Source: a virus. Taken from it: a stretch of DNA of 22,834 bases. The stretch lies in the IMG/VR virus record IMGVR_UViG_3300033571_000722, positions 1 to 22,834 of that record; one strand, written 5' to 3'. The first letter of the stretch is position 1. Every line of letters begins with the position of its first letter. Shown here one piece after another: positions 3,191-21,743 of this stretch. The notes beneath the pieces were generated by a model. It had not been told where the DNA came from and made no database searches. It saw only the letters and a program-made list of their open reading frames with translations. Made by a program: the position numbers and the translations under genes.

Positions 3191-3226
3191 AGCTTGTTTT
3201 TTTGAATTATTTTTTGTATCTTTAAT

Positions 3227-3254
3227 TATAACAGATAAAACTTAAAAAGTATGT
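3227..3254 (-). promoter_or_regulatory. Phage promoter-like motif upstream of the protease gene
   Basis: On the minus strand this has TACTTTT, then an AT-rich spacer, then TGTTATAAT, a perfect extended -10 (TGnTATAAT). Layout and spacing match the motifs at 10836, 15860, 18346 and 21715. The predicted start site would be about 30 nt before the protease ATG at 3190. The upstream element overlaps the ATG (3251) of the divergent homing endonuclease gene. On the plus strand the same box reads TATAAC and has TTGAAT 19 nt upstream (3202-3207), so it could also serve that gene. Confidence 0.55.
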
Positions 3255-3697
3255 ATTACCTATACCATATTAAAGGAATTAAATGGGGATGTTCAAAAGA
3301 ATTACCCAATAGATTAAAAAGACAAGGATATACATTAGATGATGTATGTGAAATAGTTGAACAATCTGATATTGATATTGCTTCTGAATTAGAAAAAGAA
3401 TGGAATATTAGAGATGGTTATAGTTGGAATGATTCACAGGATTATAGAATAATTACAAAAGCTGCTTCACTAGGTGGTAAAGCATCTGTGCAAAATATGT
3501 TAAATAAAAGACCATCTACAAAAGGAGAAAGTAATATAAAAGCATTTTTAACCGAAACTGATGTACTGAATATCAGAAAAGATTATGAAGATGCCAAAAA
3601 AGGATATGGTGCATTATCTTCTTTGGCATCTAAGTACAACCTAAAACACGGTCATATATCATCAATTATCCATCGTAAAATATGGAAACACATTTAA
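3251..3697 (+). CDS. Probable free-standing GIY-YIG-like homing endonuclease
   Basis: A 148-aa protein and the only gene on the plus strand. Residues 1-70 begin MYYLYHIKGIKWGCS and continue NRLKRQGY, then ASELEKEWNIRDGY. This fits a compact GIY-YIG-like nuclease: YLYHI and KWG replace GIY and YIG, R in NRLKRQG is the expected catalytic Arg, and E in ELEKEW the likely metal-binding Glu. Residues 70-95 (ASLGGKASVQNML) resemble a NUMOD-type linker. Residues 98-148 (LTETDVLNIRKDY to IIHRKIWKHI) look like a helix-turn-helix that reads the target site. Its stop abuts the tape measure stop with no gap. Its start lies 60 nt from the divergent protease gene. This is the expected arrangement for an intron-less homing gene inserted at a gene boundary. 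Other DNA-binding roles are possible. Confidence 0.7.
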   Translation: MYYLYHIKGIKWGCSKELPNRLKRQGYTLDDVCEIVEQSDIDIASELEKEWNIRDGYSWNDSQDYRIITKAASLGGKASVQNMLNKRPSTKGESNIKAFLTETDVLNIRKDYEDAKKGYGALSSLASKYNLKHGHISSIIHRKIWKHI

Positions 3698-6600
3698 TTA
3701 TCCAGCATTAAATGTAGCAGCTCTGTTCGTTCTTCTATCTAATGCAGCTTGACTACTTATGTCTTGTGATACAACATATGCTCGTACGGGTTGCATTGCA
3801 CCTGTTAGAGTTTGTGCTAATTGTGTATTAGGGTTGGCTCCACCTTGTGTTTGTATTTGAGGTGCTTGTGTAGATGCTACCGTTGGTACTTGTGGTGGTG
3901 TTGGTAATGCAGAAGCTGAACTACCAATAGCTGCTCCACCTCCTGAACTACTTTGTGCATCAGCTGAATTTATCTGTTGTATAGATTTAACTGCTCCTGC
4001 AATTGTAGATGCAATAGATAAACCTGCTGAGATAGTATTAATTGCTACCCAAGGCATACCTGCCGTTAAAGGAGATGCAGCTACCGATTTGGCATTTGCA
4101 ATAGCAGTTTGTGCTATAATCTGTCCGATTGCAGCAGCTTGTGATATTACAACACCTGCAATTGCTAATCCTTTATTCTTACCTGCTATCTGTCCTAATA
4201 GATTACCGAATTGTTGAAACAATCCTAAGTAAGCCATATTGATTGCATGTTTAGCTTCCATTGCAGATTTCTCTGCTGCAACTTCTTTATCACTTAACGC
4301 AATTCTAGCATCAGCATACTTCTTACGAATTTCTGTTTTTTGGAATTCTGTAAGTTCAGTATTTGATAAATCCGTTGCTTCTTGCTCTGCAAGTATATCT
4401 TTTTGTTGTTGTATTCTTTCTAAATCAGCTTGAAAATCACCATCTATTAGAGCATTCTCTCTCTCCAATGCTTCAAATTTAGCCTGTAAGGTTGTTAAAA
4501 TAATACTTCTCTCTTCTTCTGCACTTAATTTCTTTTGTTCGGTTTTGTATTTTTCTAATTCAACCTCCGCGTTAATGAATTCTTTATTCTTAGCTAATGC
4601 TTCTTTACTTAATATATCTAAATTAGATTGATATGTTTTTTCTACTTCAACCTCTGCCGTAGAGAATTCTATATTCTTATTTAATGCTTCTTGATTTATT
4701 GTATCTAAATTAGATTGATATGTTTTTTCTATTTCTAATTTTTTAGCATCAAAATCTTGTTGAGTTATAGTTTGATTTTTTAATGCAGTTTGTAAATTAA
4801 CTAAATCTGTATCTCTTTTTGTATTTAAAGTTTGTTGTTCTTTATTTAAACTATCATTAATTAATGCTTCATTTACAATAGCAGCATTTTTACGAATATC
4901 AGATAACTTTTGTTGATATTGAGATTCTGTAATTTCACCTTTTGAAACTTTTAAATTCAATTGTGCTTCTTCTAATGCTACTGATTTGGTTAGTGATTGT
5001 TGAGCTTCGGTTAATGTCTTTTCTCTTAAATCTAATGCTGATTTTGCTGCCTTTTCATCCTTTTCTAATTGTTGCTTAGCAAACTTATCTTTAATTGCAG
5101 AGATTTCTTTCTCTCTATTTTCTTCAATTACTTTCGTATCTTTACCATATTTCTTAGCTTTTGTAGCTAATTCATCGTACTTTAATTTTACTGCTTCTAA
5201 CTCTTTTGATTGCTGACCTAAAAGAGATAATCGAGATTCTTCTAATCCTTTCTTAATTTCTCCTAATGCATCATTAGATGCTTTTGTAATAGCACTAAAA
5301 TCAATTGGTTTAGCTAAACCTTTCTTTAAAGTATCATTAACTAATGCTTCATTTTTAATAGCAGCATTTTTACGAATATCAAATAATTTATTTTGATACT
5401 CAGTTTCATCTATCTCACCCTTAGCTAATTTTAAACTTAATTGTGCTTCTTCTAATGCCGTCGCTTCACTTATTATCTTTTGAGCTTCACTTAATGCTTT
5501 TTCCTTTTTATCTAATAATTCTTTTGCCGCTCTCTCATCTTTTTCTAATTGTTGTTTAGCATACTTATCTCTAATTGTAGCATTTTCTTTTTGTCTAGCT
5601 TGCTCAATTATTGCAGTATCCATACCAAACTTTTTAGCTTTGGCAAGTAATGCATCATATTTTAATTTTACTAATTCTAACTCTTTTGCTTGTTCACCTA
5701 AAAGAGTTAATCTAGCTTCTTCTAACCCTTTCTTAACTTCTGCTAATGCATCATCACTTGCTTTTTTAGTAGCACTAAAATCAGGTGCTTTTGCTAAACC
5801 TTTCTTTAATTTCTTATCATTCTCAATTGCTAGTTTGGTAAGTTTATCTCCCTCTGCTGAAAACTTCTTTTCAGTTTCGGTAAGTTCTTTGAAATTACCA
5901 ACCATAGTTTCAGCCTGGTTGAGTGTCAATGACAACATACTACCACCCGATTTGATGAAATTCCCTGCGGTTTGCCAGAATGATGGGTCAACTCCTTCAC
6001 CACTAATTGCCTTAGCAGCTGCTTCTGCTGATTTTGCATAAAATACGTTAGCCTGTGTTCTTAGTTTTATTCCCTCAATTACTACTTGCGTATTAGATGC
6101 CATCAACTTTTCAGCTTGGTCTAATGAACCAGCATATCCAATGGTTGCACCTAATGTATCATTGTATTTTTTGAGAGCATCTTCCTTAGAAATTGTACCC
6201 TCCTTAGCTGCTTTAAAAGATGATTCAACATCAATTAATTTCTTATTAAAATCAGTAAGTGATTTAGTTACTTCAACTTGTGCTTCTTCATATGTTTTAG
6301 ATTCTGCCGTTGCACCTGTTATTGCATCAGCTACTTTATCCCAATTGGCAATTAATAAACCTAAACCAACAACTAATGCACCAATACCTGTGGCAGTTAA
6401 TGCAGCTGCAAATGCTTTTGCACCTGCTGCTGCGGCAGTTTCACTTACACCAACGGCAACAAATGAACGTGCTAATGCAGTATTAAGGATTGTATATACT
6501 TTCGTAATACCTGTTAAATCAAAGAATCCTTTTGCTACATCTCCTAAATCTTTACCTAATTCAACAAATGATGATTGTAAATCACTTATTTTTAATGCTC

Positions 6601-6877
6601 CAAATTGTTTTAATGTAGCAATCAAACCACTTGCTTGCCCACCGATAGCACCAATTGGACCTGGTAAACCACCCAATACATCAACAAAGTTACCTGCTCC
6701 TTTTCTTGCAGTAGCTAAACTATCCTGAACATCATCTATTTGTTGTTGTAGACGTAAGAATTCCTCAGAACCTGCGGCAGTATCTTTGATTTGTCTTTTT
6801 AAAGCTTTAAGATTTGCAATTGATGGTTCTACATCAGTTTCAACATCTACCTTTACTTTTATTTTCTTATCAGCCAT
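3698..6877 (-). CDS. Tail tape measure protein
   Basis: A 1059-aa protein and the largest gene in the window. It begins with a coiled-coil region (LKALKRQIKDTAAGSEEFLRL) and a Gly/Ala-rich hydrophobic part with a likely membrane-type segment near residues 145-180 (GIGALVVGLGLLIANW). A long charged helical region (about 190-840) and a second hydrophobic segment near 890-960 follow. It ends in an Ala/Pro/Gln-rich tail closing VRAYVVSQDISSQAALDRR. That ending and the overall layout are typical of tape measure proteins of Bacteroidota phages. These proteins set tail length and help DNA cross the host envelope. By the usual 0.15 nm per residue rule the tail would be about 150-160 nm. It contains two 160-aa tandem copies (about 357-676) and a 29-aa repeat (about 715-775). 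Its start overlaps the preceding small gene by 19 nt. Confidence 0.92.
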   Translation of the reverse strand: MADKKIKVKVDVETDVEPSIANLKALKRQIKDTAAGSEEFLRLQQQIDDVQDSLATARKGAGNFVDVLGGLPGPIGAIGGQASGLIATLKQFGALKISDLQSSFVELGKDLGDVAKGFFDLTGITKVYTILNTALARSFVAVGVSETAAAAGAKAFAAALTATGIGALVVGLGLLIANWDKVADAITGATAESKTYEEAQVEVTKSLTDFNKKLIDVESSFKAAKEGTISKEDALKKYNDTLGATIGYAGSLDQAEKLMASNTQVVIEGIKLRTQANVFYAKSAEAAAKAISGEGVDPSFWQTAGNFIKSGGSMLSLTLNQAETMVGNFKELTETEKKFSAEGDKLTKLAIENDKKLKKGLAKAPDFSATKKASDDALAEVKKGLEEARLTLLGEQAKELELVKLKYDALLAKAKKFGMDTAIIEQARQKENATIRDKYAKQQLEKDERAAKELLDKKEKALSEAQKIISEATALEEAQLSLKLAKGEIDETEYQNKLFDIRKNAAIKNEALVNDTLKKGLAKPIDFSAITKASNDALGEIKKGLEESRLSLLGQQSKELEAVKLKYDELATKAKKYGKDTKVIEENREKEISAIKDKFAKQQLEKDEKAAKSALDLREKTLTEAQQSLTKSVALEEAQLNLKVSKGEITESQYQQKLSDIRKNAAIVNEALINDSLNKEQQTLNTKRDTDLVNLQTALKNQTITQQDFDAKKLEIEKTYQSNLDTINQEALNKNIEFSTAEVEVEKTYQSNLDILSKEALAKNKEFINAEVELEKYKTEQKKLSAEEERSIILTTLQAKFEALERENALIDGDFQADLERIQQQKDILAEQEATDLSNTELTEFQKTEIRKKYADARIALSDKEVAAEKSAMEAKHAINMAYLGLFQQFGNLLGQIAGKNKGLAIAGVVISQAAAIGQIIAQTAIANAKSVAASPLTAGMPWVAINTISAGLSIASTIAGAVKSIQQINSADAQSSSGGGAAIGSSASALPTPPQVPTVASTQAPQIQTQGGANPNTQLAQTLTGAMQPVRAYVVSQDISSQAALDRRTNRAATFNAG
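4560..4735 (-). repeat. 87-bp (29-aa) tandem repeat in the tape measure gene
   Basis: Two in-frame units of EKTYQSNLD...EAL-x-KN-x-EF...AEVE lie 87 bases apart (matching blocks start at 4623 and 4710), with a third degenerate unit beginning LEKYKTE. They add length to the helical rod downstream of the 160-aa duplication. Confidence 0.75.
4847..5326 (-). repeat. Second copy of a 480-bp tandem duplication in the tape measure gene
   Basis: This copy encodes about 160 aa, starting near KKGLAKPIDFSA and ending near IRKNAAIVNEALIND. It lies exactly 480 bases from its partner: the blocks beginning at 5341 and 4861 match over most of a 40-base stretch. The copies have diverged at many third positions, so the duplication is not recent. 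Exact ends are approximate. Confidence 0.85.
5327..5806 (-). repeat. First copy of a 480-bp tandem duplication in the tape measure gene
   Basis: This copy encodes KKGLAKAPDFSA through IRKNAAIKNEALVND, in the same frame as the second copy at 4847-5326. Shared blocks include KQQLEKDE, ALEEAQL and IRKNAAI. Because the repeat is a multiple of three and helical, it lengthens the coiled coil without breaking it. Confidence 0.85.
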
Positions 6878-7071
6878 TTCGAATTCTTTATTTTATTCCA
6901 TACATCACTCCAACCAAACGGTTTCTTTTCTATTTTAGAATGTCTTTTTATTTTCTCCCAAACATCTTTCCAATCATTTGGAATTTCTTTCTTACCCTTT
7001 GCCATATCTATCTTATCAGTTGTATTATAATGTTCTGATGTATTCAGTAAATCTATAATGTTTTTTATCAT
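6859..7071 (-). CDS. Small protein with a duplicated W-x-DVW-x-KIK motif
   Basis: A 70-aa reading frame, or 48 aa if translation starts at the internal ATG at 7005 (MAKGKKEIPNDW). I do not recognise it. It contains two copies of W(K/S)DVW(E/N)KIK, 20 residues apart (W34-K42 and W54-K62 in the long form), so it is a short internally duplicated, basic, helical protein. Its 3' end overlaps the tape measure start by 19 nt. The promoter-like motif at 7077-7104 would place the transcript start almost on the upstream ATG, which favours the 48-aa form or leaderless translation. The duplicated motif and position argue it is real. A tape measure partner or tail-tip component is a guess. Confidence 0.5.
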   Translation of the reverse strand: MIKNIIDLLNTSEHYNTTDKIDMAKGKKEIPNDWKDVWEKIKRHSKIEKKPFGWSDVWNKIKNSKWLIRK

Positions 7072-7076
7072 ATTAG

Positions 7077-7104
7077 TATAACAGATTAAATGTATAATAT
7101 TATT
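7077..7104 (-). promoter_or_regulatory. Weak copy of the phage promoter-like motif upstream of the tape measure block
   Basis: The extended -10 (TGTTATACT on the minus strand) is the same as in the other copies. The upstream YAYTTT element is poorly matched, so this is the least certain of the six. It sits in the short gap between the 172-aa tail gene (stop at 7100) and the small gene before the tape measure. Confidence 0.35.
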
Positions 7105-7618
7105 GATTGATTGAATCTAATGCATCTGGAATCACAGGTCCTAATAATTGTAATTCACACTCACCTGTTTTAAGTGAGTAATCATTTATTGCTCTTAAAT
7201 GCCAATAGTTTCCTCTAAAATTAACAATATCATTAAGTTCCATTTTAAAGTAATCCGCTAATGGTATAATAGCGGAACAATTTAATAATCTTGTTTTAGG
7301 ATTATATAAAAATGAAATGTACTTTTCCCAATATGTTGAGTACAATGAATCATTTGGTAATTGACCATACGATGGTGCTTCATTATTAAATAGTAATGAA
7401 TCAGAATCTGTTGTAGGGAAACTACCTGTTACCACATTATAATGGTCGAAATATGGGAAAGATGTTTGTGCTCTTGCATCATTATCTTCATCTGCAATAT
7501 ACCAAGTTTCACAATCTATCTGTCCATTATAAAAATAAATACGTGGTAAAACTCTTGCTGGCGCATAGGTAGCAGAGTTTATAAAAGTTGGAATGTATAA
7601 AGGTATTTTTTGACTCAT
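7100..7618 (-). CDS. Putative tail hub / baseplate-associated protein
   Basis: A 172-aa protein starting MSQKIPLYIPTF, preceded by an A-rich leader. Features include PRIYFYNG near the N-terminus, then FPYFDHYN, a central YSTYWEKYISFLYN, and a C-terminal part with LNDIVNFRGNYWHLRAINDYSLKTGECELQLLGP. I recall this last arrangement (a 'Yn-x-YW-x-x-YI' block followed by an 'I-x-x-InDYsl-x-tGeC-x-L-x-L' strand pair) as the C-terminal part of larger tail hub proteins in Bacteroidota phages. It lies 11 nt after the 672-aa hub-like gene, so the two may be halves of one ancestral protein. Calling it a tail component is likely right; the precise role is inferred. Confidence 0.55.
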   Translation of the reverse strand: MSQKIPLYIPTFINSATYAPARVLPRIYFYNGQIDCETWYIADEDNDARAQTSFPYFDHYNVVTGSFPTTDSDSLLFNNEAPSYGQLPNDSLYSTYWEKYISFLYNPKTRLLNCSAIIPLADYFKMELNDIVNFRGNYWHLRAINDYSLKTGECELQLLGPVIPDALDSINQ

Positions 7619-7629
7619 ATTATTTTATT

Positions 7630-10814: not shown

Positions 10815-10835
10815 TATTTAGAATGTTTTTATTAT

Positions 10836-10863
10836 TATAACCTATATTTTTGGAAAAGTATTG
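10836..10863 (-). promoter_or_regulatory. Phage promoter-like motif upstream of the 388-aa tail gene
   Basis: On the minus strand this has TACTTTT, then an AT-rich spacer, then GGTTATAAT. The -10 hexamer TATAAT is perfect; the extended TG is changed to GG. The spacing equals that of the copies at 3227, 15860, 18346 and 21715. The predicted start is about 15 nt before the ATG at 10814. It occupies nearly the whole gap after the HK97-gp10-like gene. Confidence 0.5.
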
Positions 10864-10867
10864 AATG

Positions 10868-12769: not shown

Positions 12770-12788
12770 TTATTTTTATTTTATAATT

Positions 12789-13652
12789 TTAAGCCGTTGA
12801 CCAGGTTTTGAATGTTACGTTAGAACCAGATGACCAGTTTTGAAATGTAGTTCCCCATATTTGAGGTTCAATCCATTTTAAACAAGTTGGGCAATCTCCA
12901 AAATTAGTATAAGGTAATGCTAATATTGGTAAGTTTACTAAATCAAAATCATCTGAATTTTCAATTACATCAACAATAGTATAACAATCATAACCATAAG
13001 AAGTAGTGATGTTCTGAGATGCAGCAGGAACGTAGTTACTAGCAAACACTTGCCCTATACTACCACTTGAACTTAATATAGCTCTATATGTTCCACCACT
13101 AATACAATCTTGAATTACATACCCATTATCATTCGGATTAATCAAAAAAAAAAGGCAACGATTCTTATCGTTATGGGTAGTAAGTGTGAACTCTGCCATC
13201 CATCCTGCCAATCCATTATTGAATTGGTCTTGGAATGGAGTACAAGTTATTTCACCATTTACCTCAAACCCAACTACACCTCTTTGAGTATAAGCAGTTA
13301 AATCATTTAGAATTGCTAATGTGTTAGCATGAATATCAACAACATCTGTTGAACCAAAGAATGGAATTTCATCTTCGTTATTTCTAGCATCGGATTCGTT
13401 ATTCTTATTTTTGATTTTATCAGCAACTATTACCTGCACACTAAATTCAGTAATACTCGGTCCAAATGTGCTATTTAGAATGTTTATATTACCAATTGGG
13501 TATTGAGGAAATGCATATGTATCCAAACTTTCTAAATCACCCATTGTAACTAATGTTATAGATGGATGATTGTTCATAATAGTTCTAAAATAACTTAGAA
13601 CATTATAGTATAGAGTATAATTTACACCAGCATTATTTATTAAATTAGCCAT
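12789..13652 (-). CDS. Tail completion protein with Cys-rich C-terminal extension joined through a T10 tract
   Basis: A 287-aa reading frame. Residues 1-166 (MANLINNAGVNYTLYYNVL; FPQYPIGNINIL; NDLTAYTQRGVVGFEVNG; MAEFTLTTHNDKNRC) match in layout the tail completion or neck proteins that follow the DUF6712-type connector in Bacteroidota phages, which I recall ending close to the NRC segment. Codons 167-170 are a run of ten T. A slip of one base either way gives a stop within four codons, making a product of about 169-171 aa; normal reading adds 117 residues. The extension has two parts: a strand-rich module with C183, then YDCYTI and GDCPTC (C223, C254, C257), a Cys module I recall from phage structural proteins. 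It starts 6 nt after the connector gene. Confidence 0.65.
   Translation of the reverse strand: MANLINNAGVNYTLYYNVLSYFRTIMNNHPSITLVTMGDLESLDTYAFPQYPIGNINILNSTFGPSITEFSVQVIVADKIKNKNNESDARNNEDEIPFFGSTDVVDIHANTLAILNDLTAYTQRGVVGFEVNGEITCTPFQDQFNNGLAGWMAEFTLTTHNDKNRCLFFLINPNDNGYVIQDCISGGTYRAILSSSGSIGQVFASNYVPAASQNITTSYGYDCYTIVDVIENSDDFDLVNLPILALPYTNFGDCPTCLKWIEPQIWGTTFQNWSSGSNVTFKTWSTA
13144..13153 (-). promoter_or_regulatory. T10 slip tract inside the tail completion gene
   Basis: Ten A on the plus strand, read as CC-T10-GATTAA on the coding strand, at codons 167-170. In frame the reading continues for 117 codons. One extra T gives FFFD then stop; one fewer T gives an immediate TGA. RNA polymerase or ribosome slippage here would make a short form without the extension. 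Confidence 0.4.
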
Positions 13653-13658
13653 AATTTA

Positions 13659-14177: not shown

Positions 14178-14179
14178 AA

Positions 14180-15466
14180 TTAGTCTTTATAAGTTTCGTA
14201 TTCGTTCTCAAAAAATGCCTGTGATTGTCTTACAAATCTAGGTTCTGTTGATTGGTCTTCTGTTGTTTGGTCTTGTGGGTCTTCTATTGTTGCAGGATTC
14301 TCCATTGCCTTATTAGTTTCATCTTCAACTTGTTCAACAGTTTGACCTGTTTCTTCTGCTTGTTGTGATAAAATTACCAATGGTGTTAATTGCTCAAAGT
14401 ATAATTCCATATTATCATATCCACCTGCTGTCAAAGCATAATCTAATGCATTTAAGATAAGGTTTTGAAATGGAGATATTGTCATAGTTTGCATAATAGA
14501 GAATGCAGTTTTCATCTCTTCTGATTGGGAGCTAAATCCGTTGTTAGCCGTTCTTATACCAAACAAAAGAGGTGATGTAACTCTATGTGCAACAAGGATT
14601 CTATCCTGAGTATAATCTGCTACATAATGATATTTCTCATGTAGGTTATCAGTTTGAATTACATCTATTGTAGGTTTAGTTAAAGGGTCATCGTTAAACG
14701 ATAACATAAATCTACCTGCATTATCTGTACCTGTAAACTTTGCTTGAATTAAATCCTCAATAGTTTCTCTTTCCTCAGGAGCAGGAACACCATTGTTAAA
14801 GTTAATCATTACTGCCGGTAAGAAACCATTAGTAATATTATTTAAATGTAAGTTTGAAATCTCTCCTTCACTAATTGCAAACTGCATTGCTGCAACCCAA
14901 TCAGGCAAAGAATAATAATATAAACCTGGACAATAGTTTTTGATATAAAGAATTTCCATCTTTTGGTTTGATGTTTCAAAAGCAGGGATTTTCTTTTTAT
15001 CTTTAATTTTTCTTTGGTCATTCCAATCAGTACAATAGTAATAGTTTTGTATTCTTGTATGTGAACCTAATTTCTCAGCTCTTAAATTCTGAATAGGTAC
15101 ATGATACATCTTAATTATCTTAGTATGGTCATCATTCCAATATACCTGATAAGCAGCATTACCATACAATTTCAAATCGAATGCAACCCTTTTCGTCTCC
15201 TCCTGAGGGATTATCTTTTGTAGTATGGTATCAAACCCCTCTATCTTAGAATACAATCCCTTACCGTAGATTAAATCACCTATACCCTCAATACAAGCAC
15301 TATTAGTTGTACTCACATTAAAGGTTGTAGTAACTGCATCAAAGAAATCATCGTGACCATAAACTCCAAACGGTACCCAGGTATAACGAGTTTTAGTATC
15401 TTCCTGTATAATAGGAAGTTGGTTATTGTTTACATTAACTATTGCAAAGTTCTGTTGTTGTTTCAT
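14180..15466 (-). CDS. Portal protein
   Basis: A 428-aa protein, the expected length for HK97-type portals. Near the N-terminus is DDFFDAVTTTFNVSTTN with IEGIGDLIYGKGL, followed by the clip and wing region. The central NYCPGLYYYSLPDWVAAMQ and a QTDNLHEKYHYVADYTQDRIL stretch are typical portal landmarks, as is HRVTSPLLFGIRTANNGFSS. The acidic Gln/Glu-rich C-terminus (about 375-428) would project into the head. The protein forms the dodecamer through which DNA enters and leaves. It lies 3 nt after a 119-aa gene and 2 nt before the connector. The gene sits downstream of the capsid and tail tube genes, not upstream as is usual. Confidence 0.9.
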   Translation of the reverse strand: MKQQQNFAIVNVNNNQLPIIQEDTKTRYTWVPFGVYGHDDFFDAVTTTFNVSTTNSACIEGIGDLIYGKGLYSKIEGFDTILQKIIPQEETKRVAFDLKLYGNAAYQVYWNDDHTKIIKMYHVPIQNLRAEKLGSHTRIQNYYYCTDWNDQRKIKDKKKIPAFETSNQKMEILYIKNYCPGLYYYSLPDWVAAMQFAISEGEISNLHLNNITNGFLPAVMINFNNGVPAPEERETIEDLIQAKFTGTDNAGRFMLSFNDDPLTKPTIDVIQTDNLHEKYHYVADYTQDRILVAHRVTSPLLFGIRTANNGFSSQSEEMKTAFSIMQTMTISPFQNLILNALDYALTAGGYDNMELYFEQLTPLVILSQQAEETGQTVEQVEDETNKAMENPATIEDPQDQTTEDQSTEPRFVRQSQAFFENEYETYKD

Positions 15467-15469
15467 ATG

Positions 15470-15829
15470 TTAATCTATGATTATATACCTGTTTTCACTT
15501 TCATGCGATATTACAGGTGGAATTTGGTTTTCGTATACTGATTTATCTACTGATTGAGATTTGTATGATTGTAATGAACCATGCCATATTGGGTCAGTTG
15601 TTCCTGAATTGAATAATTCTAATCTATATTCAGTTGCAACACTTGCAGATGCAATACTTCCAGTAAATTGTAATAAACTTTCATATCCATTATATGTGAT
15701 ACCACTCAAAGACATAGTAGTGTTCTCTAAGGTATACATATTCTGCATATTCATTGTAAATGTATTAGATGATGTTACATCGGTTCTAATAGCATATGCA
15801 TTGCTCTGAGATATATAATATGGTAGCAT
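15470..15829 (-). CDS. Hypothetical 119-aa protein preceding the portal gene
   Basis: I do not recognise a named family. The protein begins MLPYYISQSNAYAIRTDVTS and is strand-rich: TMSLSGITYNGYESLLQFTG, then TEYRLELFNSGTTDPIWHGSLQ. Its end, NQIPPVISHESENRYIIID, resembles small virion proteins of Bacteroidota phages encoded near connector genes. It is the first gene of the block that starts at the 15860 promoter-like motif, and it lies only 3 nt from the portal start, so the two are probably co-translated. Upstream in-frame TAG limits the start to 15829. A small head or neck decoration is a plausible role; the evidence is position only. Confidence 0.6.
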   Translation of the reverse strand: MLPYYISQSNAYAIRTDVTSSNTFTMNMQNMYTLENTTMSLSGITYNGYESLLQFTGSIASASVATEYRLELFNSGTTDPIWHGSLQSYKSQSVDKSVYENQIPPVISHESENRYIIID

Positions 15830-15859
15830 TAGCTAGTATTTATGTTGTTCTTATCTAGA

Positions 15860-15887
15860 TATAACATACCATTTTGTTAAAATAGTT
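15860..15887 (-). promoter_or_regulatory. Phage promoter-like motif upstream of the portal block
   Basis: On the minus strand this has AACTATTTT, then an AT-rich spacer, then TATGTTATA (extended -10 TGnTATA). It lies just downstream of the strong terminator at 15896-15923 and about 30 nt before the ATG at 15829. A terminator followed directly by a promoter-like motif is the clearest block boundary in the window and supports the motif being real. Confidence 0.6.
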
Positions 15888-15895
15888 AAAATAAA

Positions 15896-15923
15896 AAACC
15901 CCACTCCGTTGGGAGTAGGGTTT
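15896..15923 (-). terminator. Rho-independent terminator after the tail tube gene
   Basis: The inverted repeat has arms at 15896-15907 and 15912-15923 (AAACCC-C-ACTCC / GGAGT-A-GGGTTT) with one internal mismatch and a GTTG loop. On the minus strand it is followed by a T-rich tract (TTTTTTATTTT), as expected for intrinsic termination. It lies 24 nt past the stop of the 182-aa gene. Confidence 0.85.
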
Positions 15924-15946
15924 CATAATCTTTATACTATACTGAA

Positions 15947-16495
15947 TTAACTATTACTTCCGTAAACGATAGTTCCACCATTTAATACTGATGTTGGAAA
16001 AGCAGTAGATGTAGAAGAACCAGATAAGAATGCTGCTGGCAATTGTTCCATACCTGTAAATGTTACAGAGTATCCGTACAAATCACCTAATGCTGCACCA
16101 GTTTGGATTGTTCCACCTGTTACATCAGCTCCTAATTTTTCTCCAACTAATAATGTATCACCATTGTTGGTCCAAATTAAGATTTGTGGTCTACCATAAG
16201 CCATCAACTTTAATTGAGTGCTCATTTCGTTTGTTAATTTCTTCAAGTTAAGAACTAATTCTTGTGAGAAGAAAGTTGTACCGTTATCTCTTGAAGAGTT
16301 TACGGTTTCAGTATAACTTGAATTTCCCTTTAACTGATAATAGTAAAGAGATGATGATGGAGGTAAAGCAGTTACCTCACCACTTCCGTTCTTTGTGAAA
16401 GAGCCAGTTGTATAGTTAATAAAATATACCCCTTGGATACCTCCTATTGATTCTTTACATACTTCGTTTCTTCCAGCTGATAAATTACAAGCCAT
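15947..16495 (-). CDS. Major tail tube protein (probable)
   Basis: A 182-aa protein starting MACNLSAGRNEVCKESIGGI. It continues with VYFINY and then YYYQLKGNSSYTETVNSSRDNGTTFF, LVLNLKKLTNEMSTQLKLMAYGRPQI, and GADVTGGTIQTGAALGDLYGYSVTFTGMEQLP. I recognise this string of blocks from the major tail or tube proteins of Bacteroidota phages, with the VTGG-x-x-x-TGAA-x-GDL core and the final FTGMEQ strand. Its place next to the capsid gene, in a cassette that ends at a strong terminator, fits a very abundant virion protein. The start codon at 16495 is 62 nt from the capsid stop; the spacer holds a hairpin that may adjust output between the two. Confidence 0.8.
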   Translation of the reverse strand: MACNLSAGRNEVCKESIGGIQGVYFINYTTGSFTKNGSGEVTALPPSSSLYYYQLKGNSSYTETVNSSRDNGTTFFSQELVLNLKKLTNEMSTQLKLMAYGRPQILIWTNNGDTLLVGEKLGADVTGGTIQTGAALGDLYGYSVTFTGMEQLPAAFLSGSSTSTAFPTSVLNGGTIVYGSNS

Positions 16496-16523
16496 GTCTT
16501 TTAATGTTTAATTGTTGTTAAAT

Positions 16524-16550
16524 ATAGGGGTGAGTTTATCCCACCCCTAT
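16524..16550. terminator. Perfect 9-bp hairpin between capsid and tail tube genes
   Basis: Arms ATAGGGGTG (16524-16532) and CACCCCTAT (16542-16550) with a nine-base loop. On the plus strand it is followed by a T-rich run (TTATTTTTTA), a good intrinsic terminator shape. On the minus strand (the direction of the genes) the following bases are only weakly T-rich, so it may act there as a partial terminator or an RNA stabiliser that sets the ratio of capsid to tail protein. Confidence 0.7.
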
Positions 16551-16557
16551 TTATTTT

Positions 16558-17550
16558 TTAGTATGCTCCGTAGTATACAATATCTTGTCCTACACCGAAT
16601 TGAGTACCACCTGTGTATCTCATTATGATTCTGTAATTCTGAGAACCATCAATGTTAGCCATGTCTAATACTTTAACTTCGTTATAATCACTTAAAAGGC
16701 CTGTACCGAAGAATAAGTTAGATTTTTGTGCTGCGATGATTTTAGAATCAGATAAACCTGGACACATTGCCAATTCAATTCCTTGGAAGTTCATTGGTTT
16801 CTCACCAACGTTCAATTGGTTGTTGAATCCGTTTGCTCCTAATCCTGATGCACCACCACCTGCTAATGCTGATTGGTAAGCTTTTGCTACGTTAGTAGAA
16901 ACATAAATCAATAAATCTTGCTTACCGAATACTGTCTTAGGGATAGTTTGGTAAACTGAATCTAATTTAGATACTACGTTTGCTGATGTTACCGAACCAG
17001 AAATCAAAGCAGATGAACCACCTGTTGTTCTTGCTGGCAATACTGCCGTTGCTCCACCCGCTGCAACTGATGCAGAGAATGCAGTTTCAAATCCACCGAA
17101 CTGACCGTTAGATGAATTAACACCTTGCCAGATAGATTCTTCTGTTGCTTGTGCAACTACACCACCTACATAAGATACTAAGTAATCGTTGAAGTTCTTT
17201 GGAATTTCATCGAATGCAGAGAATCCTAATTGTAATGCTTCCCATGATGCAACAAATTCTTGCTTACATAATTGGATGTTTACTTGTAACTCTTTTGGAG
17301 TTAAAACTTGCTCAGAGATTGTTACTGAACCTGTGTTTGCTACGAAATCACAACTAGCGTCATTTACTAAGTTAGCTACTGCTAATTTTTGGATAACAGA
17401 CTTGTACTTCACGTTTGGCATGATAGTTACATATTTGTTATCCAAAGTTGTAGCACTTAACAATGCTGCCGCGATGTAGCCAGAAGCTGCCTCACCTGCG
17501 TAAGTTGTTGCAGTGATAGTTGGATTAGCGAAATTTTGAAATTTTTTCAT
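16558..17550 (-). CDS. Major capsid protein (HK97 fold)
   Basis: A 330-aa protein starting MKKFQNFANPTITATTYAGEAA. The N-terminal arm is followed by YVTIMPNVKYKSVIQKL and a glycine- and serine-rich loop (about 150-190; FSASVAAGGATAVLPA, ISGSVTSANVV) as in E-loop or insertion regions. KQDLLIYVSTNVAKAYQSAL, GIELAMCPGLSDSKIIAAQ and YRIIMRYTGGTQFGVGQDIVYYGAY form the P- and A-domain core. Length and layout are those of an HK97-fold coat protein, and placement right after a scaffold-like acidic protein supports it. The start is preceded by an A-rich leader (TTAAAGAAAAAGAA) 26 nt long. Direct homology was not tested. Confidence 0.9.
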   Translation of the reverse strand: MKKFQNFANPTITATTYAGEAASGYIAAALLSATTLDNKYVTIMPNVKYKSVIQKLAVANLVNDASCDFVANTGSVTISEQVLTPKELQVNIQLCKQEFVASWEALQLGFSAFDEIPKNFNDYLVSYVGGVVAQATEESIWQGVNSSNGQFGGFETAFSASVAAGGATAVLPARTTGGSSALISGSVTSANVVSKLDSVYQTIPKTVFGKQDLLIYVSTNVAKAYQSALAGGGASGLGANGFNNQLNVGEKPMNFQGIELAMCPGLSDSKIIAAQKSNLFFGTGLLSDYNEVKVLDMANIDGSQNYRIIMRYTGGTQFGVGQDIVYYGAY

Positions 17551-17576
17551 TTCTTTTTCTTTAATGTGTTAATAAT

Positions 17577-18323
17577 TTATTTATATAATTTTGATAAGAA
17601 GTTTGATTGTGCATCTTTAACTCCTTTTCCGTAATTTCTCTTATTCATTTCAGCTGAGAATTTAAGACCTTCTTCGATAGGTGCTCCATCTAATTTAGGT
17701 AAATCTTCTTCTTCATCAGTTACTTCTGAATCTACTGGTGGTAATAATGCTTCTTCCATTTTAGCCATCTTAGATTGTAACTCTTGAATGATGTATGCCA
17801 TATCTTCAATCTTCTTACCTAATTCGATTTCGATTTCAGGTTTCTCTTCTGAATCTGTATCAGCAGGAATTGGCTCAGCAGTTTCTGTTTCTTCTTCTAA
17901 TTTTAAAGTTCCAGATTCAACTTGTCCCTCAGAATCAGGTACTTCATTTACCTTTTCTTTCTTATCTGCTTGTGGTATTGGTTTTACTTCAACTGTTTCA
18001 GCATCTGCTTCTGCCATTTCTTCTTCTTTTGGTAATGCAGGATTTGCTTCTTCTACGTTTTCTCTTTGAACGATTTTACCGTCCTTAGTTTCAACTCTGA
18101 TTACTACCTCTCTACCCTCTGAATCTTTAAGTGCAATTTCATGCTCTCCATCAGGTGCAGGAGTTTTAGTTCCATCTTCTGATATAACATCTACGGTTTC
18201 ACCCAAATCAAATGTTGGAGATTGTAAAATTGTTCCGTCAGCAGTTCTAGCATCCGTAAATTCAACTTCTGATTGTATTGAAAGAAGTTGTAAAATTTTA
18301 GTAAGTACTTTCTTTGAATTCAT
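17577..18323 (-). CDS. Acidic scaffold-like protein preceding the capsid gene
   Basis: A 248-aa, Glu-rich protein. Residues 20-95 form a conserved N-terminal region (TDARTADGTILQSPTFDLGE, then EDGTKTPAPDGEHEIALKDS and EGREVVIRVETKDGKI) that I recall from proteins next to capsid genes in Bacteroidota phages. Residues 95-165 are a low-complexity Glu/Pro/Ala linker. Residues 166-192 (GKKIEDMAYIIQELQSKMAKM) form a likely coiled coil. The C-terminus (EMNKRNYGKGVKDAQSNFLSKLYK) is basic, as expected for a scaffold that binds the coat protein. The charge split and location give the call; a decoration protein is the alternative. It starts a block with a promoter-like motif (18346-18373) and is followed by the capsid gene after 26 nt. 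Confidence 0.7.
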   Translation of the reverse strand: MNSKKVLTKILQLLSIQSEVEFTDARTADGTILQSPTFDLGETVDVISEDGTKTPAPDGEHEIALKDSEGREVVIRVETKDGKIVQRENVEEANPALPKEEEMAEADAETVEVKPIPQADKKEKVNEVPDSEGQVESGTLKLEEETETAEPIPADTDSEEKPEIEIELGKKIEDMAYIIQELQSKMAKMEEALLPPVDSEVTDEEEDLPKLDGAPIEEGLKFSAEMNKRNYGKGVKDAQSNFLSKLYK

Positions 18324-18345
18324 AATTGTTTGTTTATACTCTGTA

Positions 18346-18373
18346 TATAACAGAGGTAATTTTAAAAATAGTT
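18346..18373 (-). promoter_or_regulatory. Phage promoter-like motif upstream of the scaffold-capsid-tail tube block
   Basis: On the minus strand this has AACTATTTT, then a spacer, then CTCTGTTATATA (extended -10 TGnTATA). It is the same motif and spacing as at 15860. The -10 sits within a perfect 17-base inverted repeat (CTCTGT, five bases, ACAGAG; 18339-18355). The start site would lie about 16 nt before the ATG at 18323. This is the promoter that would drive the most abundant virion proteins. Confidence 0.6.
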
Positions 18374-18389
18374 ATTTTTTTTATATAGT

Positions 18390-19148
18390 CTATGATACAG
18401 TTAGTCTTTGTTTGAATACATACCAGTTCTGTCTAATCTGTTTTGGTGATAAAACAAATGGATATACCATATATGCCATCATAACTCCATTCAGATAATT
18501 GTTACTCAAAGCATTCTTACCTATTCTAATGTTTGCAGTTGATGGAGAAAACAATCCTCTATCATATGTGTTAGTATCTGTTGAGTTTGTACTACCATCA
18601 TTTAGATACATAGTATGTGAATTTAAACCATTGGTTGTAAATGTTACCACATTCCATCCATTATATTGTGATACCAATGTTACATTACAACTTAAAGTTG
18701 CTTGTGTATTTCCACTTGCTCCATACCATATAGTAGGTGTTACAACTCCCGCAGTTGAAAGCACTAAATTTAATCCGTTATTGTTTTGTAATCCAACTAA
18801 TGCACCATTTTGAAATTCTCCTCCTCCTTTATAAACAGAAACAACAGACATTGCTCCCGTAGGAAATGTAGAGTTAAATACAGTATTCAAACCATTTGAT
18901 GCATTGAATCCTATACTACCACCATATGAAGTGCTCCACATAGAAGCAGCTGCACCACCACCTGTTTGGAATTGCCCTTGTGGCTCTCCACTATTATATA
19001 CATTAGATGTTATACCACCTGCTCCTTGACCAGGAGGATATGATACAGGATTCCCCCAATCAAATATTAGATTTGCTCCATTTACATATGCAAATTTAGC
19101 AAAGTTGATTTGTTCCCCGCTACTCTTTACAAAAAATTGTGGTATCAT
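18390..19148 (-). CDS. LamG/concanavalin-like structural protein
   Basis: A 252-aa protein starting MIPQFFVKSSGEQINFAKF. The region from residue 90 on (FPTGAMSVVSVYKGGGEFQ, NGWNVVTFTTNGLNSHTMYL) and especially the end (IRIGKNALSNNYLNGVMMAY, YPFVLSPKQIRQNWYVFKQR) match the LamG/concanavalin A-like jelly-roll found on phage fibres and spikes: a last pair of strands followed by an 'L-S-x-x-Q-I-x-x-NW' helix. Such domains bind sugars or other surface groups. It lies one base after the stop of the 754-aa fibre gene, so it is probably a fibre partner or a separately encoded tip. No signal peptide is visible. Confidence 0.65.
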   Translation of the reverse strand: MIPQFFVKSSGEQINFAKFAYVNGANLIFDWGNPVSYPPGQGAGGITSNVYNSGEPQGQFQTGGGAAASMWSTSYGGSIGFNASNGLNTVFNSTFPTGAMSVVSVYKGGGEFQNGALVGLQNNNGLNLVLSTAGVVTPTIWYGASGNTQATLSCNVTLVSQYNGWNVVTFTTNGLNSHTMYLNDGSTNSTDTNTYDRGLFSPSTANIRIGKNALSNNYLNGVMMAYMVYPFVLSPKQIRQNWYVFKQRLTVS

Positions 19149-19149
19149 A

Positions 19150-21414
19150 TTATACGAATGAATAAGCAGGTACTAAATAAACATTAGTTGAATCTACCGA
19201 AGTTAATGATATAATATCAGTTGAACCAGATGGAGATGGAACGTATGAAGAACCTGATACCTGTTTTACGTTTGAACTAAACGATGCAGTTACAGATGCT
19301 CCTGTTGTAATTACTAATGTTGCAGTTACACCAGGTCTAGGGTTTGTTACATTTATGTTTGTAGTACCTGATAGAGTTAAAGTAAAGTAGTTAGCTACAC
19401 TTAAATCTATACTTGCAGTTTGTGATGTTATAGATGATGCGGATACGTTACCATATACAGAACCCGTAATAGTTAAAGAACCACTAACATTTAGAGTTCC
19501 CTCTACAAATGTGTTAGAACCACTATCAATTAAGAAAGCTGTTTTAGGTGTAGTTGTTGTTCCTGTACCAATTGCAAATACTGTTTCAGCAGTTTTAGCT
19601 TTGTTACCATCTTGTGCATTAAATCTACCAAAGAATGCAGAACCATAAGTATTACTTCTTATTGGTGCACCGGTTTGTAATGCTGCTGAACCAGTTACAC
19701 CTAAATTATGTCCAATGATTGCAGTTGCAACTATATTGGAATTATCACCATTTAGATTTAGGGATGCTGAATTAAATGTTCCCGCTAATAAGTTTGCATT
19801 AAACTGTCTTCCGGTTGCAGCAGTTGTATTAGAACCAGATGCGTATAATAAAGTAGCACTACCAAATATAGCATTACCTTGTTGCATTGATAATGAATTA
19901 CCACCACCGGTTGCGGATGCATTATAGTAACTATTATTTACAGTTAAATTGGCATTTTGTATTGTATTAACTGCTAATGTTAAAGATGAACTATCTGCAT
20001 TTAACGATACTGTGCCACCTATATTATTAGAAGCTATTAGCATTGTAGAAGAACTAATAAAATTAGTTTTATATGCAGTTACATTTACAGTTCCATTTAC
20101 AATATTGTTTGTTATGGTAGTTCCGTTTATTGCTCTTTCATAATTGGTAGAAGCGGCAGTTCCTAAACTTATTGTTCCACCAAATAGACCATTATTAGTT
20201 ATACTATATGCAGATGAACTAACAGGTCCTCTAACTGTCATTCCAAACGTATTGGTGTTTGCAAAATAGTTACCACTCAAAGTTGGAGAGAATCCCATAG
20301 AAGCAGAGAACTGTGGTAAACCAGTTGCTACTAATCCTATGTTACCAGTTGTTAAATATCTTCTGAATCCTGCCGTATTTGCGTTAGGATTTGCAATTAT
20401 ATTATTACTACCTGATATTACAGTATCACTTGTAGTAGAACTTGCCTTAAAAATTAAATTGAGTTGGTTAGCAGATGATGTATAGTTAGATAGTGTGGAT
20501 GAACCAGATGCTATCGTTTTACCTGTCAATACTAACGAACCACTATATGATTGTATAGCAACCGTATTACCAGTCGTATCTGCTATCGTTTCTGTACCTG
20601 TTATAAATTGGTCTCCTACAAATACATTTGAACCCGTAGTTGCAAATCCTAATCCAAATATAGTTGATGAGGTGAATTGATTAAATGATGATGTGTTTAA
20701 CTTTGTATCTATATTAGCTTGTAATACAGATGATGAATAATCCAATTCACCTTGTGTTGCATAACCACCACTTAAAGATGATGATAAGTTTAATAATTCT
20801 TGTATAGATGCAGTTGCTGATGCATTCCAAATTGCTTGTGATGCACTAACTGAATATAATGAAGAAGATATACCATTAATAGATGTTGCAACAGATGCAC
20901 TATATGCATTGAATGAAGAAGTAGTTACATAACTCGGGTCTGTTAATATAGTAATAGAAGCAATTGGTCCATTTACATTAGGAACAATACTAGCTGATAC
21001 TAATCCATTAAAGAAGAATCTTGTAGATGTTCCTATACTTGCACCATTAACTATAATTTGATTTATAGAAGATGTGAATGCTTGTAATGTTGTTACCTCT
21101 GCATCTAATGTGTTTATAGATGTATTAGCACTTTGTGTGAATGTATTTACACCTGAGTTTATACTCAATTGAGATGCCGTAAAAGCATTCAATGCAGTAA
21201 ACGATGGTTGTTGTGATGATGTAAATGTATTTAACGCAGATATAGATTGATTCCAACTACCACTATTAGATGTGTATTGAGATTGATTAACTGTTGAGTC
21301 AATCATATCAGTATTGAAATCTCTTAATAAAGCAGGTGTTATATATCCTGTATTATTATTTGGGAAGCTTGTAGTATTCTCTACGGCCAAAGCCTGTTTT
21401 GATATTTGAGACAT
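19150..21414 (-). CDS. Large Ser/Asn-rich fibre protein
   Basis: A 754-aa protein starting MSQISKQALAVENTTSFPNN. Residues 30-260 are Ser/Asn/Thr-rich helical repeats (FTSSQQPSFTALNAFTASQ, then FNAYSASVATSINGISSSL), much like the repeats of the 505-aa fibre. Residues near 255-280 contain FATTGSNVFVGDQFITGTE, a module also in that protein. Residues 280-680 are beta-rich (SYSGSLVLTGKTIASGSSTL, TLAVNTIQNANLTVNNSYYN), as in beta-helical fibre shafts. Residues 680-754 form a Thr-rich C-terminal domain (LSGTTNINVTNPRPGVTATL). It follows the 86-aa Cys-rich gene by 22 nt and precedes the LamG-like gene by one base. A tail or head fibre is likely; which one is not settled. Confidence 0.7.
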   Translation of the reverse strand: MSQISKQALAVENTTSFPNNNTGYITPALLRDFNTDMIDSTVNQSQYTSNSGSWNQSISALNTFTSSQQPSFTALNAFTASQLSINSGVNTFTQSANTSINTLDAEVTTLQAFTSSINQIIVNGASIGTSTRFFFNGLVSASIVPNVNGPIASITILTDPSYVTTSSFNAYSASVATSINGISSSLYSVSASQAIWNASATASIQELLNLSSSLSGGYATQGELDYSSSVLQANIDTKLNTSSFNQFTSSTIFGLGFATTGSNVFVGDQFITGTETIADTTGNTVAIQSYSGSLVLTGKTIASGSSTLSNYTSSANQLNLIFKASSTTSDTVISGSNNIIANPNANTAGFRRYLTTGNIGLVATGLPQFSASMGFSPTLSGNYFANTNTFGMTVRGPVSSSAYSITNNGLFGGTISLGTAASTNYERAINGTTITNNIVNGTVNVTAYKTNFISSSTMLIASNNIGGTVSLNADSSSLTLAVNTIQNANLTVNNSYYNASATGGGNSLSMQQGNAIFGSATLLYASGSNTTAATGRQFNANLLAGTFNSASLNLNGDNSNIVATAIIGHNLGVTGSAALQTGAPIRSNTYGSAFFGRFNAQDGNKAKTAETVFAIGTGTTTTPKTAFLIDSGSNTFVEGTLNVSGSLTITGSVYGNVSASSITSQTASIDLSVANYFTLTLSGTTNINVTNPRPGVTATLVITTGASVTASFSSNVKQVSGSSYVPSPSGSTDIISLTSVDSTNVYLVPAYSFV

Positions 21415-21436
21415 ATCTTTTTATATATTTTATTTT

Positions 21437-21697
21437 TTATTCAAAACCATCAGAATAACCATCATTGAATGCTCCTCTATCAGGAGTAGGTGATTCGATT
21501 TGTCCAATACCCTGCTCCATTAAAGCACCATTACAACATCTAACATCGTATGTGTTAGAATCTAAACACAAACACGCTCTTCTACTATTCTTAGGAGAAG
21601 ATAAACCACGTGTTGGCCCTAGGTATATACCAGAGTTGTTCTCTCTGTTTACTGAATACCTAAGATTACCACTTCTGCTATTAGACCACTTTGCCAT
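21437..21697 (-). CDS. Small Cys-rich virion-associated protein
   Basis: An 86-aa protein. The core RRACLCLDSNTYDVRCCNG followed by ALMEQGIGQI has Cys at 42, 44, 54 and 55, arranged C-x-C then CC. I recall close variants of this core (a CLC...Y...CC-x-G...QGIG pattern) in small proteins of Bacteroidota phages but know no tested function. A Cys-paired mini-domain that binds metal or is disulfide-stabilised in the virion is possible. The start at 21697 is preceded by AAAAGGA, one of the few Shine-Dalgarno-like leaders here. It is the first gene of the block carrying the fibre genes, 17 nt from the promoter-like motif at 21715-21742. Confidence 0.65.
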   Translation of the reverse strand: MAKWSNSRSGNLRYSVNRENNSGIYLGPTRGLSSPKNSRRACLCLDSNTYDVRCCNGALMEQGIGQIESPTPDRGAFNDGYSDGFE

Positions 21698-21714
21698 AAT
21701 ATTCCTTTTCTATG

Positions 21715-21742
21715 TATAACATACCTAAACTGAAAAATGGTT
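21715..21742 (-). promoter_or_regulatory. Phage promoter-like motif upstream of the fibre block
   Basis: On the minus strand this has AACCATTTTT, then a spacer, then TATGTTATA (extended -10 TGnTATA), the same layout as at 15860 and 18346. The -10 is part of a short inverted repeat (TATGT, three bases, ACATA; 21711-21723). It fills the gap between the chaperone-like gene (stop at 21744) and the 86-aa gene. Confidence 0.6.
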
Positions 21743-21743
21743 A

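Follow-up and report, generated by a model that had tools for sequence, protein, structure and literature searches.

In Salmonella phage 7-11, the phage sigma factor SaPh711_gp47 works with the host core RNA polymerase at bipartite late promoters (GTAAtg-(16)-aCTA), early genes being left to the host sigma70. In phiEco32 (Kuravirus), the phage sigma factor gp36 serves middle and late genes, and in both phages transcription starts 6-9 bp from the promoter element (excerpts of PMC8948821). There is also an earlier method paper (excerpt of PMC4331800), and phage sigma factors have been treated in Bacillota as well (excerpt of PMC9429907). Little has been learned of how Bacteroidota phages control transcription, and the primary sigma factor of their hosts is atypical. 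Here we analyze the IMG/VR virus record IMGVR_UViG_3300033571_000722 (22,834 bases, probably a fragment; hereafter the window), in which a recurring promoter-like motif precedes the blocks of structural genes. The sites are predicted to be late promoters and are very probably read by a phage-encoded sigma factor of the extracytoplasmic function (ECF) type.

Promoter-like sites in the window

The pattern YAYTTT-N13-GTTATA has five exact matches in the window, at 3227, 10836, 15860, 18346 and 21715, all in spacers and on the minus (coding) strand (Table 1). Only 0.07 exact sites are expected per shuffle, none of 100 shuffles reaches five, and the reversed pattern has zero matches in the window; the layout that the original prediction, made from the sequence alone, saw in five minus-strand spacers is confirmed. 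From the end of TATA to the start of the next open reading frame (ORF) the distances are 36, 21, 30, 22 and 17 nt, in the same order; a weak sixth site at 7077 lies only 5 nt before a 70-amino-acid (aa) ORF (7071-6859), which is ahead of a 1059-aa tape-measure-like ORF. The five exact sites head ORFs of 472, 388, 119, 248 and 86 aa, again in the same order, each the first in a structural gene block: the 472-aa ORF (3190-1772) contains a protease, and the 248-aa ORF (18323-17577) sits just upstream of the likely major capsid gene. The downstream box is TGTTATA at five of the six sites, as had been stated, with GGTTATA at 10836 as the exception, and a terminator directly preceding one site, also stated earlier, was found at the 15860 site.

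When two mismatches are allowed, the pattern yields 32 matches against 28.7 expected, which is chance level; the consensus was thus right but truncated. Its upstream box, given as (T/C)A(C/T)TTT, is part of a longer box, TAACnA (positions 1-6 of the motif described below) followed by a T-rich run. Four of the window sites score 17.9-23.1 with a 36-bp matrix trained without the window. A scan for sigma70-type promoters returned 64, compared with 104 in shuffles.

A 36-bp motif shared by related phages

Relatives were sampled as 80 IMG/VR contigs, of 597 confirmed, retrieved with the likely capsid protein of the window. They contain the exact pattern ten times, eight times in coding-strand spacers 14-22 nt before an ORF and twice antisense within coding sequence. 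Word counts over 330 spacers revealed a further upstream word, TAACTAT, in 52 of them versus 0 on the opposite strand. De novo discovery on 234 non-redundant spacers, by expectation maximization (EM) with zero or one occurrence per sequence (ZOOPS), converged on one 36-bp motif, TAAcTAtttTTa-N10-tTGTTATaaatA, which is used by about half of these spacers. Its layout is TAAC-n-A-(T-rich)-N10-TTGTTA, with 19 bp from AAC to GTT. Motif discovery in relatives, the check proposed at the outset, thus recovered the motif, of which the form originally described is only a part.

Retrained without the window and applied at a score of at least 16, the matrix gives 163 hits in the 80 relatives, of which 157 lie in coding-strand spacers, six in sense coding sequence and none in antisense orientation. 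A second test set comprised 80 loci anchored on the sigma gene described below, minus six on contigs already used and five sharing more than 20% of their 31-mers with the training set. In these 69 loci, 87 of 94 hits fall in coding-strand spacers, two in opposite-strand spacers and five in coding sequence; the reversed matrix gives two hits. Equal frequency in coding or shuffled sequence would have undermined the original prediction, and the motif proved to be confined almost wholly to coding-strand spacers and nearly absent from shuffles. A pattern drawn up by hand with an error of one base in its spacing gave 14 matches in 16 contigs versus 9 when reversed; it is not the motif and served as an accidental control.

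Among 95 distinct sites, G24, T25 and T26 are invariant, partly by construction since this core helped to define the sites, while A6 is found in 97%, A27 in 93% and C4 in 48%. In 211 spacers anchored on the core, AAC lies 19 bp upstream in 57, 18 bp in one and 20 bp in seven, with a minor peak at 16 bp (15 spacers). The distance from the motif to the ATG varies widely although the box spacing is fixed at 19 bp. Positions 27-29 differ from phage to phage and read AAA, ATT, ATA, ATC, AGA or TTT. The earlier reading of the downstream box as an extended -10 element (TGnTATAAT) is not supported: such an element would show a conserved TATAAT with a nearly invariant last T, and here only (T/G)GTT, mostly followed by A27, is fixed, GTT being the invariant part of (T/G)GTT(A/T) and the last T of TATAAT not being conserved. 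The suggestion that the sites do not fit the Bacteroidota primary sigma promoter (TAnnTTTG at -7, TTTG at -33) was correct, TAnnTTTG being absent from the motif. Late promoters of a phage-encoded ECF-type sigma factor of the 7-11 kind would be expected to show two boxes at a constant distance ahead of the late genes, and such a motif was observed. Promoters of cellular ECF sigma factors have AAC-type -35 and GT-type -10 boxes, which the layout of the motif (AAC at a putative -35, GTT at a putative -10) resembles.

Orthologues of six window genes that follow sites, and of six control genes, were located in ten long contigs. At five junctions the core (T/G)GTT(A/T) is present in all 49 assessable contig-junction pairs. 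It occurs in ten of ten relatives at each of the junctions orthologous to the sites at 21708, 18339, 15853 and 10829 (the last in the GGTT form), and in nine of nine at the 3227-site junction, where the 472-aa gene of contig G010 was not assessable. Full-matrix scores at these junctions run from 1.8 to 26.9, the lowest being in contigs G002 and G008; before the control genes (six genes in ten contigs, 60 values) the score is 5.2 at most. The presence of the core at orthologous junctions and its absence before control genes bear out the claim that the motif is promoter-like and marks the starts of structural blocks. At the 7077 junction the position of the ORF start is doubtful, which leaves the junction itself uncertain: the gene start was placed by script in six of the ten relatives, and the core was found in three (G002, G003 and G008), with G004 added by eye. 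The weak sixth site is only partly supported by the core at related junctions, and its matrix score is below 6.

A candidate sigma factor

A profile search identified a two-domain protein of about 185 aa encoded a few kb upstream of the structural genes in all ten of the longest relatives. In 16 longer relative contigs, PF04542 matched ten at E <= 1.2e-4, and gp33 of Nonlabens phage P12024S weakly matched three others. A profile built from 13 members (alignment A1) then identified a single ORF per contig in the ten longest contigs; in one of them, G009, the PF04542 and gp33 searches had given no match. All 13 members match the sigma70-ECF family TIGR02937 (best 4.4e-13; alignment over residues 23-176 of 183), and likewise TIGR02985. 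Six relatives were queried for phrog_1740 ('RNA polymerase sigma factor'): four match it along almost their entire length (E 5e-10 to 2e-8), one more matches with E 7e-4, and the sixth, L123, has no match to this family; gp33 of P12024S matches it at 6e-6. Complete ORFs measure 176-187 aa and contain regions 2 and 4 only, without region 1.1 or 3, in keeping with the roughly 160-200 aa of ECF proteins.

The AlphaFold model (pLDDT 84.8, pTM 0.44) has two helical domains, residues 4-86 and 107-177, with a linker of low confidence between them. The top Foldseek hits are, with few exceptions, ECF sigma factors (E 5e-4 for SigL). In VIA-align, the first match is region 4 of Escherichia coli sigmaE bound to -35 DNA (Z 10.1, 2.3 A, 69 residues), and region 2 of SigR is matched at Z 8.7 (3.1 A over 78 residues). 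Z values of 9-10 are moderate for helical domains, and what carries weight is that numerous ECF chains are matched in accord with the profile results. A sequence search of solved structures gave weak hits, including SigR at E 0.05. A BLAST search with the sigma factor of one relative matched no named phage, no relative of it was found in genome_contigs, and Cellulophaga phage phi46:1, which has a distantly related capsid-like protein, gave no match to the profile. By comparison with relative L001, the sigma gene of the window is expected about 3.5-4 kb past the right end, and the phage from which the window derives would carry it there. The original suggestion that a phage factor may be needed has thereby gained a candidate, the ECF-type sigma gene of the relatives.

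In sigma-anchored loci, with 'upstream of sigma' taken only as a proxy for early, the motif is present in 54 of 135 spacers downstream of the sigma gene versus 5 of 122 upstream (Fisher p 7e-13). TAnnTTTG, the -7 box of Flavobacterium psychrophilum (excerpt of PMC9723704), shows the opposite distribution: 26 of the 122 upstream spacers contain it, as do 8 of the 135 downstream ones (Fisher p 4e-4). Measured from the sigma gene in ten contigs, motif sites lie near 1.4, 3.7-4.8, 8.5-9.2, 11, 15-18, 22 and 24-25 kb.

The nearest named phages are the Nonlabens phages P12024S and P12024L (34.5% identity in the portal, 28% in the capsid-like protein), and no match to the window DNA was found in named phages. 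Because these phages infect Nonlabens and the early promoters are of the host type, the host phylum would be Bacteroidota. Terminal repeats of 123-127 bp occur in four of the ten long contigs, which are thus probably complete circles. The sites are best explained as belonging to a tailed phage of about 31-34 kb with a Bacteroidota host.

Apparent coupling of promoter and sigma factor changes

Thirty-six contigs have three or more sites, and in these the motif bases 27-31 are far more alike within a phage than expected (z 5.9, 10.9, 10.4, 5.4 and 3.4). Bases 21 and 22 are also phage-specific (z 3.8 and 4.2), bases 8-9 slightly so (2.8 and 2.4), and no such excess agreement was seen in these contigs for bases 1-7 (the -35 box) or 32-36. 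Since bases 27-31 are phage-specific, the 'TATA' of the window is the private continuation of that phage.

A pooled set of 202 sigma-bearing loci, 156 of them with sites, forms 77 clusters when sigma factors are grouped at 95% identity; of these, 68 have A and nine have T as base 27. When 178 sigma columns were scanned for association with base 27, columns 68 and 66 ranked first and second. Column 68 is N in all 68 A27 clusters and H in five and N in four of the T27 clusters, and column 66 is A or P in eight of the nine T27 clusters and never in an A27 cluster. The loop had been noticed beforehand in a smaller set that overlaps with the pooled one, which makes the scan less than fully independent, and the tests treat columns as independent although these share one phylogeny. 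In the AlphaFold model both columns fall in the loop that links helices two and three of region 2 (residues 38-55 and 69-86), where ECF sigma factors probably read a -10 base; Campagne and colleagues have reportedly described the role of this loop in ECF -10 recognition. A tree from which columns 60-76 had been left out shows three independent changes of base 27, every one accompanied by a change in the loop. Locus L230 carries an HM-type loop on a sigma body that groups with L137, has TGTTT promoters and lies on a long branch; it possibly reflects recombination of the specificity loop.

The chances are about even that a large uncultured group of Bacteroidota phages amounts to a natural library of matched sigma factors and promoters, in which each private -10 box is read by a short loop of the phage's own sigma factor and the loop changes, or perhaps is swapped as in L230, together with all promoters of the genome. 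If so, the code by which -10 sequences are recognized could be read from them, and they would supply orthogonal pairs of sigma factor and promoter for direct use in Bacteroidota.

A cultured counterpart

P12024S provides a cultured counterpart. Its gp33, annotated with Sigma-70 region 2, is encoded slightly upstream of the terminase gene and matches the sigma profile of the relatives with an hhalign probability of 94 (E 1e-7). The full matrix finds nothing convincing in this genome. The form AAC-N16/17-CGTTA, chosen after its spacers had been read by eye, occurs at 147, 2999, 5380, 21249, 23930, 25169 and 26770. Each of these seven sites lies 7-8 nt before an annotated start, and they include the capsid-block, pre-portal and pre-terminase junctions. 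Because order-1 shuffles are expected to yield 2.7 matches on both strands (largest 10), the evidence is the placement before seven starts, not the count. An AAC...CGTTA layout is the classical look of an ECF promoter.

P12024S is like the window group in its related portal and capsid-like proteins, its sigma factor gp33 and its analogous AAC...CGTTA sites. It differs in having CGTTA rather than TGTTA, an AAC-to-GTT distance shorter by 1-2 bp and sites 7-8 nt from the ATG. If its start points are 6-9 nt away from the element, the distance known for 7-11 and phiEco32, several of its mRNAs would be nearly leaderless. Core boxes lie 5-8 nt before the ATG at site 7077 of the window and at the seven P12024S sites (locus L086), which may mean either leaderless late mRNAs or misplaced start codons. 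In the literature searched, no description of P12024S late promoters was found.

Proposed mechanism and alternatives

The host polymerase with the host primary sigma factor would transcribe the early genes, the phage sigma gene among them, from TAnnTTTG promoters. The phage ECF-type sigma factor, with regions 2 and 4 only, would then redirect the host core polymerase to a stringent bipartite promoter consisting of TAAC-n-A at -35 and TTGTTA at -10, with 19 bp from AAC to GTT. Recognition of the TAAC box would fall to region 4, and that of the TGTT(A/T) box to region 2, via the loop at residues ~60-69. As the promoter occurs once per structural block, each block would fire from its own copy. 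Computation establishes the motif with its position, strand, spacing and conservation at orthologous junctions, the sigma gene and its fold family in the relatives, and the linked changes of loop and -10 base; from these we infer the binding of the sigma factor to the sites, the timing and the start points.

Several observations weigh against this interpretation. The window (22.8 kb) ends before the expected place of the sigma gene. TIGR02937 scores member 1 at 37.2 bits against a cut-off of 42.9; the Pfam matches to regions 2 and 4, including PF04542, stay under the curated cut-offs for the sigma factors of all six relatives, and the PF04542 cut-off is just passed in only one of 16 contigs. 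Because the curated family cut-offs are not reached, the term 'ECF-type' rests on the full-length profile matches and the fold. Two of the ten long contigs, G002 and G008, have the core but a poor upstream box. Just 54 of the 135 late-side spacers reach the threshold, and 36 of 100 hits scoring at least 14 in all sequence of the sigma-anchored loci fall upstream of the sigma gene; permuted contig ends are the likely cause of these upstream hits. Of 52 plus-strand hits scoring at least 13 in the ten long contigs, three lie in the presumed early part (G002, G003 and G009), and three further hits are on the opposite strand, two in G009 and one in G010. Finally, the link between loop and base 27 comes from three changes (sign test p 0.25), with L230 on its long branch. 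Because columns 163, 74 and 29 also separate the A27 and T27 groups, and for bases 28 and 29 the loop columns rank no higher than others, with columns elsewhere taking the lead, the link is a strong lead and not a proven code.

The best-surviving alternative is that an ECF sigma factor of the host reads the sites and is borrowed by the phage, the sigma-like phage protein having another role. F. psychrophilum has seven ECF sigma factors and a promoter class, SM6, with a CGT box at -10 like the CGTTA of P12024S (excerpts of PMC9723704). We regard this as quite improbable, since a host factor would account neither for a -10 continuation private to each phage nor for the tracking of base 27 with the loop of the phage sigma factor, which is present in all ten long relatives. 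A slightly smaller probability attaches to operators, in which TAAC/GTTA inverted repeats would bind a phage activator or repressor dimer while the host polymerase starts nearby: TAAC (1-4) and GTTA (24-27) are indeed reverse complements, but the dyad is broken in the nine sigma clusters with T27, since phages of this type, G007 for example, retain TAAC. Conservation of C4 is, moreover, only 48%, no second conserved host-type box accompanies the motif in the 95 aligned sites, and P12024S has AAC...CGTTA at a different spacing. Least probable of all is a translational or 5'-untranslated-region RNA element, or mere AT-rich spacer composition in a genome of 33% GC, which would suit the AT-rich region and the proximity to start codons but not the fixed 19-bp box distance beside a widely variable ATG distance, the upstream boxes abutting terminators, or the strand specificity and absence in shuffles, in reversed controls and before control genes.

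Other features of the window

Table 1. Predicted late promoter sites and associated features of the window
Feature	Position	Strand	Remarks
Predicted late promoter site, TAACCATTTTT...TGTTATA	21708..21743	-	score 19.5; upstream of 86-aa ORF 21697-21437
-35-like TAACCA of the preceding site	21743-21738	-	
Core TGTTA of the same site	21721-21717	-	
Predicted late promoter site, TAACTATTTTT...TGTTATA	18339..18374	-	score 17.9; upstream of 248-aa ORF 18323-17577
Likely major capsid protein, 330-aa ORF	16558..17550	-	phrog_11320, E 2e-36 (family of unknown function)
Intrinsic terminator, 13-pair stem then T tract	15895..15924	-	immediately upstream of the 15853-15888 site
Predicted late promoter site, TAACTATTTTA...TGTTATA	15853..15888	-	score 23.1; upstream of 119-aa ORF 15829-15470 and portal gene
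Portal gene	14180..15466	-	phrog_33693 portal, E 5e-61; PF04860 over cut-off
Predicted late promoter site, TCAATACTTTT...GGTTATA	10829..10864	-	score 21.3; upstream of 388-aa ORF 10814-9648
Weak candidate site, TGTTATA	7070..7105	-	score <6; poor upstream box
Predicted late promoter site, weakened upstream box, TACATACTTTTT...TGTTATA	3220..3255	-	score 10.6; heads 472-aa ORF

The 330-aa ORF, the anchor for finding relatives, owes its likely designation as capsid to its size and gene order; the P12024S protein to which it is 28% identical lies near the portal block of that phage, and its orthologues have no late motif directly upstream. The portal gene is presumably transcribed from the 15853-15888 site. 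The prohead-protease-like domain of the 472-aa ORF was assigned by family, and size and gene order suggest the tape measure role of the 1059-aa ORF.

A 148-aa ORF (3251-3697) runs on the plus strand, opposite to its neighbors, between the tape-measure-like and protease genes. It has no Pfam or PHROG match, and relative G001 has no counterpart at the same place. The site at 3220-3255 may be weak because its -35 end overlaps the start of this ORF.

The sequence TTCAGTATA lies between a 182-aa gene and the terminator (15895-15947, minus strand) and occurs in 20 of the 330 spacers taken from the window together with its relatives, a terminator-like G/C run following in 18 of the 20. Runs of about ten A on the plus strand lie at ~22003-22013 and 13144-13153, inside genes 21833-22507 and 12789-13652. 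The first of these genes has a weak tail-assembly-chaperone-like match; programmed frameshifting is possible there because the A run lies in the overlap with an ORF in another frame (21744-22061). In G009, overlapping hits on both strands (oriented positions ~19286-19327; scores 14.5 and 15.0) are possibly a divergent promoter.

Comparison with known systems

The Bacteroidota housekeeping promoter (TAnnTTTG at -7) is found among the early spacers of these phages and differs from the late motif. Cellular ECF sigma factors (sigmaE, SigR, SigW, and SigL and SigH of Mycobacterium tuberculosis) have in common with the relatives' protein a two-domain fold with a flexible linker; the latter is phage-encoded, would have a late-gene regulon and is only ~10-19% identical to the matched chains. 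Although gp36 of phiEco32 and the relatives' sigma factors both fall in phrog_1740, an hhalign probability of 1.2 against the relatives' profile leaves close homology unsupported, and gp36 acts at a single-element promoter, tAATGTAtA, and has no region 4 homology as described in the excerpts of PMC8948821.

Phage 7-11 is the precedent: as is proposed for the window group, it combines a phage sigma factor having a region 4 homologue, the host core polymerase and bipartite promoters upstream of late genes, with the early genes left to the host sigma factor. It differs as an elongated-head podophage of Enterobacteriaceae with other promoter letters, and its start sites and in vitro activity are demonstrated (excerpts of PMC8948821). 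As far as sequence can tell, the window group works as 7-11 does.

The literature searched, which did not take in most subscription journals, yielded no report of an ECF-type sigma factor or of late promoters in Bacteroidota phages. The analysis yields a testable late-promoter sequence, the gene of its probable reader and a cultured test phage, P12024S. The 77 distinct sigma-promoter sets could help to decode ECF -10 recognition and supply compatible expression tools for Bacteroidota. Taken together, these observations are best explained as a known strategy that occurs here in another group of phages and another phylum of hosts, the coevolution of promoter and sigma factor being signaled with unusual clarity.

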